Assembly (NCBI RefSeq): GCF_012184425.1
Contig: NZ_VTOW01000003.1
Location: 124,001 to 188,000 of the forward strand
Length of the DNA: 64,000 nucleotides
DNA from: Candidatus Manganitrophus noduliformans
GTDB lineage: Bacteria > Nitrospirota > Nitrospiria > SBBL01 > Manganitrophaceae
Direction of reading: 5' to 3'
Shown here: positions 39,630 to 42,370 of the stretch, one piece after another
Layout: each line of letters begins with the position of its first letter
Numbering within the stretch: position 1 is the first letter of the stretch
The notes under the pieces: generated by a model
What the model saw: only the letters and a program-made list of their open reading frames with translations
What the model was told of the DNA's origin: nothing
Databases searched by the model: none
Position numbers and translations under genes: made by a program

Positions 39630-40799
39630 ATGGTTGGTTCCATGATTTCTAATCAAAAGCGGCTTGCGGCCCAGCTTAAGAAAATCGATTCGAATGATCT
39701 TGACCTCGATTCCCTTTTCAATGAGATCTTTTCAGAAGTCAAAAAAGAGATTCCATTTCGGGCCGGATGGTTTTTTCAGACGAGTCCGAATACGTTGCAA
39801 CCGATTCAATCCGCTCGGCAAGTCTGGAGCGGAGTGGCTCCCCCGGAAATGAACGGCGCGAATCACGGTTCGTCGCTATTCCCGACCGTTCGACAACTGC
39901 TGCAAAGGGGTGCGCTCTGTATGCGGGGAGAGGAGTGGTGGAGTCCCTCTCGTCTCAGCAGCCATCCGATCTATCAAAGAGTATTGAAGCCGAATCAGCT
40001 TCACTTTGCCCTTATTCTTGTTCTTCTCGATGGGGAGAAGAAGTGTAGAGGGTACATTACCCTTTGGAGAGAGAAGAATAAAGGCGATTTTACTGACGCA
40101 AATCTTGAAGCATTAAGCTTTGCTTCCCCGATCATCGGAGCCCACTTAGAGAGAATTCCTGTTTCTCAAAAGAAATCAATAGTTTCTGAGATCAGCGAGG
40201 AAGAGCTCCATCAGCTGGTTCGCCGGCGGGCGCAACCCGGTATCCTTATTCTCAATCAGGATGGGCACATTCTTTATGTGAACCAGGACGCCAAAGGCCT
40301 TCTGGAAGCGCTTACAGCGAAAAGCCCTTCACCCTCTCCGAATCATGGTCCGTTGCCTCAAATCGTCTATCAACTTTATACCCAGTTTAAGGAAAACATC
40401 AACGGCATCGGCCCGGATCTGCTTGGGTCATCCATGCCGACGGTCAACCGAGTTTGCATCCATGAGGGGGTTGTCTTTCTTTTCCGGGCGCTTCTTTTAC
40501 AGAAGCAAGGCACCAGTCGAGACTCCATGCATATTATGGTATTAATCGAAAAAGTATCCCAAGGGGTTCGGATCGATCAGTTTGTCCAGTCGACGAACCT
40601 GACCGAGCGCGAGCAGGCTGTTGTGCGGCTCCTCCTTGAAGGGAAAACGAATAAAGAGGTTGCATCGTGCATGAATATCGGGGAGTATACCGTCAAAGAT
40701 CATGTCAAAAGAATCATGAAAAAATTAAACGTTACGACGCGAGCCGGCATTGTGGCAAAAATTCTTCACCAGCACCTCCCCGCCAATAATGAACGTTAA
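39630..40799 (+). CDS. LuxR-type transcriptional regulator with GAF/PAS-like sensor
   Basis: The 389-residue protein has an N-terminal GAF-like region (about 20-185), a PAS-like segment (about 190-300, PGILILNQDGHILYVNQDAKGLLEAL) and a C-terminal LuxR helix-turn-helix (NLTEREQAVVRLLLEGKTNKEVASCMNI, then YTVKDHVKRIMKKLNV). It lacks a receiver domain, so it likely senses a small molecule or redox state directly. Its position at the head of the polysaccharide genes makes it a candidate local regulator. Its stop codon lies inside a palindrome cluster. A second ATG at 39642 is an alternative start. Confidence 0.83.
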   Translation: MVGSMISNQKRLAAQLKKIDSNDLDLDSLFNEIFSEVKKEIPFRAGWFFQTSPNTLQPIQSARQVWSGVAPPEMNGANHGSSLFPTVRQLLQRGALCMRGEEWWSPSRLSSHPIYQRVLKPNQLHFALILVLLDGEKKCRGYITLWREKNKGDFTDANLEALSFASPIIGAHLERIPVSQKKSIVSEISEEELHQLVRRRAQPGILILNQDGHILYVNQDAKGLLEALTAKSPSPSPNHGPLPQIVYQLYTQFKENINGIGPDLLGSSMPTVNRVCIHEGVVFLFRALLLQKQGTSRDSMHIMVLIEKVSQGVRIDQFVQSTNLTEREQAVVRLLLEGKTNKEVASCMNIGEYTVKDHVKRIMKKLNVTTRAGIVAKILHQHLPANNER

Positions 40800-40902: not shown

Positions 40903-40976
40903 ATTTCTTCACAACCCCCTCTTTTGGGGGGATTGATATTTGGACGATTATCACTTAGATTGTAACAATATTTCGG

Positions 40977-41077
40977 CAAGAAAAAGGGTAGCGATGGACG
41001 GATCGCTACCCTTTTACCTCCCCTGAGTGGTGGTAAACGCTTCTTGTAAGGAGGGTATCCCAGTGGATGAGATACAT
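40977..41077 (-). ncRNA. Candidate small RNA A (minus strand), paralogue of 41553-41651
   Basis: A minus-strand transcript of about 100 nt is predicted. Its promoter is TTGACA (41107-41112) with an extended -10 TGA-TATATG (41083-41088), spacer 18. The RNA begins with a hairpin (GTATC at 41071-41075 with GATAC at 41055-41059), then a C-rich stretch ACCCTCCTTA complementary to ribosome-site sequences, a variable middle, and a perfect 10-bp terminator hairpin (40986-41011, arm GGGTAGCGAT) followed by TTTTTCTT. A second copy with the same plan lies 575 bases away. The hairpin also carries TTTT on the plus side and may end the LuxR-type transcript. No Rfam family was recognised. Confidence 0.6.
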
Positions 41078-41082
41078 TTATT

Positions 41083-41112
41083 CATATATCATCTTTCAGG
41101 AATACCTGTCAA
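41083..41112 (-). promoter_or_regulatory. Promoter of candidate small RNA A
   Basis: TTGACA (41107-41112) and TATATG (41083-41088, preceded by TGA) lie 18 bases apart on the minus strand. The box AAGGAGGGAATC sits immediately upstream of the -35 and is conserved in copy B. Confidence 0.6.
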
Positions 41113-41242
41113 GATTCCCTCCTTTTGAAATTGAAACAATCCTGTGAAGTATAGAGGCTCTTGTCTGAGCCGTGCTTCGAACCCTGTAAGACAGAGTATT
41201 CGTATGCCACGATTAACCAACTACCATGTAGGAAGGGCAAGC

Positions 41243-41548
41243 ATGGCGAAAGGAATCGATCGAGAACGGAGGGAATCAGAGCGGTATGGACTTCGGACAA
41301 AAGTAATGTATGAGCCCTCCGCGGGACTGGACCTTAAAGAAAAGGTGCATGCTGGAAGAACGATCAATATCAGCAGCGGGGGCTTTTGTTTGAAGACGGA
41401 AACGCCTCTGTCGCAATCCCAGATCATACGGGTGAGCATTCCCATACCGAAAGTAAATGCGATGTCACCCACATTGGCGGAAGTGTGTTGGGTGGAGGGG
41501 CTGAAGAAGCAAAAGGGATATTGGGTCGGTCTTCGTTTTCTCTTATAA
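41243..41548 (+). CDS. PilZ-domain protein at the head of the polysaccharide genes
   Basis: The 101-residue protein has the c-di-GMP-binding motifs RxxxR (R10-R14 in RRESER) and NxSxxG (NISSGG), then a PilZ beta-barrel pattern ending in YWVGLRFLL. As a stand-alone receptor it may act on the polysaccharide synthesis or export proteins encoded just downstream. ATG 41243 with a GGAAGGG ribosome site is chosen; the open frame runs 99 bases further upstream without support. Candidate small-RNA genes flank it on both sides, on the opposite strand. Confidence 0.82.
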   Translation: MAKGIDRERRESERYGLRTKVMYEPSAGLDLKEKVHAGRTINISSGGFCLKTETPLSQSQIIRVSIPIPKVNAMSPTLAEVCWVEGLKKQKGYWVGLRFLL

Positions 41549-41552
41549 AGTA

Positions 41553-41651
41553 AGAAAAGGGTAGCGATGGCCAGATCGCTACCCTTTCAGTTTCCTTACG
41601 ATACTATGAACGTCCCATAAGGCGGGGTATCTCCACGGTGGAGAGATACAG
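41553..41651 (-). ncRNA. Candidate small RNA B (minus strand), paralogue of 40977-41077
   Basis: Promoter TTGACA (41679-41684) and extended -10 TGA-TATACA (41656-41661), spacer 17, drive a predicted RNA of about 100 nt on the minus strand. It starts with a hairpin (GTATCTC at 41643-41649 read on the minus strand with GAGATAC at 41627-41633), then ACCCCGCCTTA, a variable centre and the same terminator hairpin as copy A (41559-41584, arm GGGTAGCGAT, changed loop) followed by TTTTCTTA. Conservation of promoter, hairpin and terminator with a divergent middle is what is expected of duplicated small-RNA genes. It is divergent from the export gene. Confidence 0.6.
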
Positions 41652-41655
41652 GTGC

Positions 41656-41684
41656 TGTATATCATGATAAAAGGCCTGTGTCAA
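41656..41684 (-). promoter_or_regulatory. Promoter of candidate small RNA B
   Basis: Consensus TTGACA and TATACA at 17-base spacing with an extended TG. The upstream box AGGAGGGGATAT adjoins the -35, as in copy A. Confidence 0.62.
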
Positions 41685-41685
41685 T

Positions 41686-41729
41686 ATCCCCTCCTCCCGC
41701 ACCCGCGAGTTGGAAGAGGGGATTTTTGT
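41686..41729 (+). terminator. Terminator/attenuator in the leader of the export gene
   Basis: ATCCCCTC (41686-41693) and GAGGGGAT (41716-41723) form a perfect 8-bp stem followed by TTTTTG, ending 9 bases before the GGAGG ribosome site. The left arm can instead pair with GGCGGGG (41621-41627) upstream, which would open the hairpin. Such mutually exclusive pairing is the layout of an attenuator. Confidence 0.5.
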
Positions 41730-41746
41730 TTGCGACTGGAGGAAAT

Positions 41747-42370
41747 GTGTTTGTCGGAAAGTATTTGATGGTGGTCTCCTTAGGGTTGGTTTTGCTGGTG
41801 AACGGCGCCTGCGCCGAACGCCGGAAAACGATTTCTCAATCGGAGAATCAAACGGCGGAGATGCAGGAATCGACCATTTCAGCATCCAAAGAATATATTC
41901 TCGGCGCGGAGGATGTCGTAGAAATTCTTGTTTGGAGAAATGAAGCGCTCTCCCGGACGGTGTCCATTCGTCCCGATGGTAAGATTTCACTTCCAATTGT
42001 GGGCGATTTACAGGCGGCCGGCTTATCCGCGACGCAGTTGCGCGATTCGATCAAAGAACATCTGCAGGAATACAAAGAGACGCCTGAAGTCTCTGTCATT
42101 ATCCGAGAAGTCAACAGCCTGGCGGTTTTTATCCTGGGAGAGGTCGCCCGTCCCGGAAAACTTCAACTCCGAAGCGAGACGACCCTCCTTCAGGCTTTGT
42201 CCTTATCGGGCGGCTTCACCCAGTATGCGGACCCGGATAACATTCTCCTCTTGCGGAGAGAAGGAGGTGGCGAGACGCGGATCCGCGTCCGCTACAAGGA
42301 CATCGTCAGCGGCAGGAATCCCGACGGAAATCTTCTTCTCCATCGAGGGGACACCATTTTAGTTCCATGA
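41747..42370 (+). CDS. Polysaccharide export lipoprotein (Wza/EpsE family)
   Basis: The mature protein follows a signal peptide with lipobox NGAC. The poly-export domain reads YILGAEDVVEILVWRNEALSRTVSIRPDGKISLPIVGDLQAAG, and one SLBB-like segment (VFILGEVARPGKLQL, then LLQALSLSGGF) follows. It should form the outer-membrane export channel. At about 207 residues it is short compared with Wza (about 380), a size typical of EpsE-like exosortase-locus proteins. The start is set at a GTG with GGAGG just upstream; an ATG at 41768 is an alternative, and the frame is open to 41678. Confidence 0.85.
   Translation: MFVGKYLMVVSLGLVLLVNGACAERRKTISQSENQTAEMQESTISASKEYILGAEDVVEILVWRNEALSRTVSIRPDGKISLPIVGDLQAAGLSATQLRDSIKEHLQEYKETPEVSVIIREVNSLAVFILGEVARPGKLQLRSETTLLQALSLSGGFTQYADPDNILLLRREGGGETRIRVRYKDIVSGRNPDGNLLLHRGDTILVP

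Follow-up and report, generated by a model that had tools for sequence, protein, structure and literature searches.

MtlS of Vibrio cholerae is a ~120-nt cis-antisense RNA to the 5′ leader of its target, and the promoters of the two transcripts converge (PMC6597380). RnaG of Shigella is an antisense RNA to the initial ~120 nt of the icsA mRNA, with convergent promoters that interfere with one another (PMC8383071, PMC6597380), and RNA-beta of Vibrio anguillarum is an antisense RNA within the fatDCBA-angRT operon that ends transcription between cistrons and sets unequal levels of the upstream and downstream genes (PMC8383071). Two candidate small RNAs of Candidatus Manganitrophus, here called c1 and c2, would have the same geometry as these systems. 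Like MtlS and RnaG, both are predicted to be antisense to a leader and to face a convergent promoter, and c2 recalls RNA-beta in sitting between a PilZ gene and a polysaccharide export gene, just before a terminator-like hairpin. There are also differences. MtlS is an unrelated gene, has a mannitol transporter as its target, exists as a single copy and has been demonstrated experimentally. The RnaG promoter overlaps the coding start of the target, whereas the two paralogues c1 and c2 are confined to non-coding leader sequence; RNA-beta terminates transcription, whereas the terminator near c2 is predicted to fold without it. Judged by geometry, cis-antisense control is the most likely role for c1 and c2.

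Ca. Manganitrophus is a manganese-oxidising chemolithoautotroph of the Nitrospirota, and the window that we analysed, a 64-kb stretch of its DNA, holds an exosortase/PEP-CTERM polysaccharide cluster. Its genes encode a PrsT-type TPR protein, a LuxR-type regulator, PilZ, export and chain-length proteins, an autokinase, a sugar transferase, an outer-membrane protein, a deacetylase and the exosortase XrtW; several of these names are given by similarity because the scores fall under the NCBIfam cut-offs. On the plus strand lie the LuxR-type regulator (39630..40799), whose DNA-binding end is like that of EpsA from exosortase loci at a score far under that family's cut-off, the PilZ-domain protein (41243..41548; PF07238), and the polysaccharide export protein of the PEP-CTERM/exosortase type (41747..42370; PF02563; TIGR03027 at E 6e-42, under the cut-off). 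Gene order across the genus is invariably LuxR, c1 where present, PilZ, c2 and export. The PilZ gene of Ca. Manganitrophus GAC4 (G003:C1:3830491-3830792; L084, L087) appears to be split by a frameshift into two overlapping pieces; it has one base fewer in the alignment, which may be a sequencing error.

The first candidate, c1 (minus strand, 40979..41075, ~100 nt), comprises a promoter, a 5′ hairpin, a middle hairpin and a terminator. Its −35 element TTGACA (41107..41112), invariant in the genus, is followed by a spacer of 18 whose last three bases, TGA, belong to the extended −10 element TGA-TATATG (41083..41091, with TATATG at 41088-41083), of which TGATATA is invariant, and this spacing predicts a +1 near 41075. 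The RNA would begin with the 5′ hairpin GTATCTCATCCACTGGGATAC (41075-41055), run through the C-rich stretch CCCTCCTTA (41055-41047) and a second hairpin, TTTACC...GGTAAA, and end in an intrinsic terminator with a 14-bp stem (40978..41015), the U-run stopping near 40980. Abutting the −35 element is a G-rich block, AGGAGGGAATC (41113..41123), whose column conservation makes it a candidate regulator site: 10 of the 14 columns before the −35 element are invariant, compared with 30% farther upstream.

The second candidate, c2 (minus strand, 41552..41649, ~100 nt), is built alike. An invariant −35 TTGACA (41679..41684) and an extended −10 TGA-TATACA (41656..41664, with TATACA at 41661-41656), all nine columns of which are invariant, predict a +1 near 41649. 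The spacer is 17 here and 18 in genomes G002, G003 and G005, the only two lengths found across the genus. A G-rich block common to c1, AGGAGGGGATA (41685..41695), again abuts the −35 element and is shifted in G001. From the predicted start follow the 5′ hairpin GTATCTCTCCACCGTGGAGATAC (41649-41627), the C-rich run CCCCGCCTTA (from 41627) and the intrinsic terminator (41549..41588), which ends at the PilZ stop codon; CCCCGCCTTATGGGA stands between the 5′ hairpin and the terminator. Taken together, the −35 and TGA/−10 columns of c2 are invariant at 15 of 15 positions against 4 of 14 (29%) in the spacer (P about 5e-5). The c1 spacer is also conserved (87%), so c1 cannot separate promoter from background conservation; a regulator site may be hidden in it.

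The preliminary description, made from one sequence, had proposed two paralogous minus-strand units with a common TTGACA, TGA-TATA (spacers 18 and 17), 5′ hairpin and C-rich linker, and these elements proved to be present as proposed, as did the identical terminator arms GGGTAGCGAT/ATCGCTACCC of the two copies, whose loops differ; the offset, given as 575, is in fact 572-573 nt. It is in the terminator that c1 and c2 resemble each other most (94% identity over 33 nt, E 2e-7 genome-wide). Searched on both strands, the window has just two TTGACA-N16-19-TATA matches in all, at c1 and at c2, where base shuffles lead one to expect 0.26. A similarity search of the genome found no third copy, and a repeat family or REP element was rejected on that account. 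Folding gives a z of about −4.3 for each RNA, better than all of 200 shuffles, and the window has no Rfam match at the gathering threshold, the sub-threshold matches being chance-like; identity with a known RNA family was rejected on that ground.

Conservation was seen within the genus and not outside it. In a comparison of modest power, with six genomes of which G003 and G005 are close relatives, c2 is present in all six and c1 in five (G004 lacks it), at the same location. A blastn search of 52 genomes from beyond the genus detected neither, and when a covariance model was run on 270 genomes from the class, all 11 strong matches lay within the genus. The search of related genomes envisaged earlier thus recovered strong homologues in the genus and none that we accept outside. 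Loss of the TTGACA/−10 pair in homologues, named beforehand as evidence against small-RNA genes, was looked for, and the pair is kept in all 11 copies of the genus. Weak matches in Nitrospira (covariance E 1e-5 to 0.08; L041, L044-L053) were rejected as homologues: they lie in a different neighbourhood and have no evident 5′ hairpin. They proved to be another conserved element, one whose terminator loop is of a similar type, and may be remotely related to c1 and c2. This element, around position 1500 of those loci, is ~80 nt long and reads ...GCTGCTTTCTT..CGCYATGGAGTCTCTCC..GCTAAGGAA..GGGAGGTGATGTGGCCATCACCTCCC followed by a T-run; upstream lies a −10 box resembling TGN-TAAGAT. The three loci tested gave no Rfam match, and by its sequence the element looks like an undescribed small RNA of Nitrospira. 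A pattern match in Pelagibius (L034) was also seen; by our own estimate a chance match or two is expected from a scan of this size.

The strand on which these elements are read can be judged from their base pairs. A base pair that is G-U on one strand becomes an A×C mismatch when the complementary strand is read. Within the terminator stem and the 5′ hairpin, 6-7 changes preserve pairing on the minus strand only and 1 on the plus strand only (one-sided P 0.04-0.06, from a count that mixes independent and shared events), an asymmetry that is suggestive of a minus-strand RNA. Past the terminator stem, the minus direction has the longer U-run and the plus direction a weak one. Both observations point to minus-strand RNAs. 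Comparative sequence thus bears out the original proposal of two paralogous minus-strand small-RNA genes, and c1 and c2 are very likely real; that they are transcribed small-RNA genes is, taken alone, a claim that we make with high confidence.

What the preliminary description missed is a conserved plus-strand promoter at 40915-40961. Just beyond c1 lies the palindrome CCCCCTCTTTTGGGGGG, of the form CCCCCTC-TTTT-(G/A)GGGGG, followed by TTGATA (40933-40938), 17 nt and TAGATT (40956-40961), with a predicted start at ~40968, roughly 10 nt from the c1 3′ terminus. All six congeners have the general arrangement, which runs CCCCTC-N4-GAGGGG, then A or C, TTGAnn, a 17-nt spacer and TA(A/G)A(G/T)T; it also stands immediately ahead of the export gene itself in seven sister-family (f5) genomes and, in G014, upstream of PilZ. 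Of 296 genomes of the phylum, 7 contain the exact pattern, 6 of these belonging to the same order; the reversed control never occurs. An arrangement so conserved and almost confined to the order is very probably the promoter of the operon, coupled to a dedicated regulator site; in principle, the LuxR transcript could also end at the palindrome. Sites of the form CCCCTC-N4-GAGGGG-(A/C)-TTGA-N19-TA(A/G)A(G/T)T number 1-8 per genome (L069-L078, L085, L089-L095, L110-L118) and lie upstream of export, PilZ, PEP-CTERM-like (L114), GGDEF-like (L113) and other genes; these order-specific sites probably form one regulon.

The interval from PilZ to the export gene showed no conserved plus-strand promoter. 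A terminator-like hairpin, ATCCCCTC...GAGGGGATTTTT with a T-run (TTTTT), is conserved there in all six species (plus strand, 41686..41727) and ends about 10 nt before the Shine-Dalgarno (SD) sequence of the export gene. On the predicted plus transcript, c1 falls within 40968-41243 and c2 within 41549-41747, so an operon mRNA started at the 40915-40961 promoter would carry the complements of both RNAs.

Sequence and conservation support the RNA-gene anatomy, the plus promoter and the antisense geometry, and we suspect, at roughly even confidence, that c1 and c2 are duplicated cis-antisense RNAs of the polysaccharide operon that lower or uncouple the expression of PilZ (c1) and of the export and biosynthesis genes (c2). 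According to this model, paralogous sigma-70-type genes for structured RNAs of ~100 nt would have been duplicated within the exosortase locus, and the operon would be transcribed from the regulated plus-strand promoter at 40915-40961 into an mRNA that runs through the c1 complement, PilZ, the c2 complement, the T-run hairpin and the export gene. c1 would be antisense to about +10 to +108 of the mRNA 5′ leader, upstream of PilZ, and c2 to the leader between PilZ and the export gene, immediately before the terminator-like hairpin. Full complementarity and convergent transcription would then lower or uncouple PilZ through c1 and the export and biosynthesis genes through c2, possibly by duplex formation, termination or polymerase collision. 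Transcription, start sites, duplex formation and the sign and step of the regulation are the parts of the model that we infer. Consistent with cis-encoded antisense RNAs, each candidate has, by sequence and conservation, a promoter and a terminator of its own. Complementarity is automatic if both strands are transcribed, so that geometry alone is no proof of function, and in G004 the plus promoter and PilZ are both retained although c1 is missing, which makes c1 dispensable.

Attenuation of the pT181/pIP501 kind is defined by an antiterminator that prevails over the terminator as long as no antisense RNA is bound. The resemblance to c2 lies in an antisense RNA placed opposite a terminator-bearing leader (PMC8383071); the difference is that folding does not support the defining antiterminator at the c2 locus. 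An antiterminator of the c2-complementary AGGAGGGG with the terminator arm CCCCTCCT is not predicted, except partly in G004. Folding also disfavours a pT181-style switch in which c2 would remove an antiterminator: even with no c2, the terminator is predicted to form with P 0.70-1.00 across the six species, and the antiterminator pair has P ≤0.30.

An alternative is that c1 and c2 act in trans, with the linkers ACCCUCCUUA (c1) and CCUUAUGGGA (c2) pairing to distant mRNAs, possibly at the SD sites of polysaccharide genes. A 5′ hairpin with a terminator is standard small-RNA anatomy, and within the linkers CCCTCCTT of c1 is invariant in five species and predicted to be unpaired in G000 and G005, CCTTATGGGA of c2 is invariant in six species, and both segments are partly single-stranded. 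However, the anti-SD run on which such pairing might draw is broken in c2: CCUCC is kept in all five c1 copies and lost in four of the six c2 copies, where the run is CCCCGCCTTA in three species and CCCCTTCCTTA in another. The suggestion that the C-rich strand is an anti-SD seed for polysaccharide genes thus finds no support in c2. Target prediction had also been proposed, and a duplex scan of 40 gene starts with shuffled controls found the export-gene start unremarkable (z −0.96 and +1.54); anti-SD control of that gene was rejected since it is no outlier. Also against action in trans, the position opposite the operon does not vary within the genus, and Hfq was not found: with positive controls detected, PF17209 is absent from all six genus genomes, a result compatible with long perfect antisense pairing. 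Pairing in trans is a reading that we consider doubtful. CsrA is present in five of the six genomes; a CsrB/RsmZ-type CsrA sponge, which would carry many GGA motifs in its hairpin loops, was rejected upon inspection, as each RNA has few GGA motifs, mostly in or between stems.

We find it improbable that the stretches are plus-strand leader elements, riboswitches or attenuators before PilZ and the export gene, with coincidental minus-strand promoters. The inverted repeat ATACAGGT...CCTGTGT across the c2 promoter (plus strand, 41646..41682) does show paired changes between species (G001, G004) and plus-strand wobbles, and may be an operator or a plus-strand leader hairpin; the terminator hairpin with TTTTT ahead of the export SD is found in 6/6 species; and AGGAGGGG is able to pair with CCCCTCCT in most of them. 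Yet on inspection that helix has no compensated change, it is unpredicted in five of the six species, no Rfam family matches, wobble pairs in the terminator and the 5′ hairpin speak for the minus strand, and the c2 promoter hexamers stay invariant inside a drifting stretch. A plus-strand three-way-junction riboswitch was rejected on the uncompensated closing helix and the minus-strand bias of the hairpin wobbles. Plus-strand leader elements had been put forward as the alternative to minus-strand small RNAs; given the antisense geometry, the two probably both apply. That c1 and c2 are merely duplicated punctuation at gene ends, bidirectional terminators with spurious promoters and no RNA function, is very improbable: each hairpin does follow a plus-strand gene and the terminator is where the copies are most alike, but conservation extends 100-130 nt past it in a pattern of promoter, hairpin and linker, and the plus-direction U-run is weak.

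Returning to cis-antisense control, one speculative extension, which we think rather unlikely to hold as a whole, is that c1 and c2 are linked antisense rheostats, one per leader, that set the output of PilZ and the exopolysaccharide machinery. A common GAGGGG site lies next to the −35 element of all three promoters, and a single regulator, perhaps the EpsA-like neighbour, might drive both the operon and its antisense brakes without Hfq. To our knowledge, few small RNAs appear to be on record for the Nitrospirota. The order-wide operator-promoter would define a small regulon open to tests of its own, and c1 and c2 offer a concrete candidate pair through which RNA may control how much polysaccharide and PilZ is made in a manganese-oxidising genus in which Hfq was not found.
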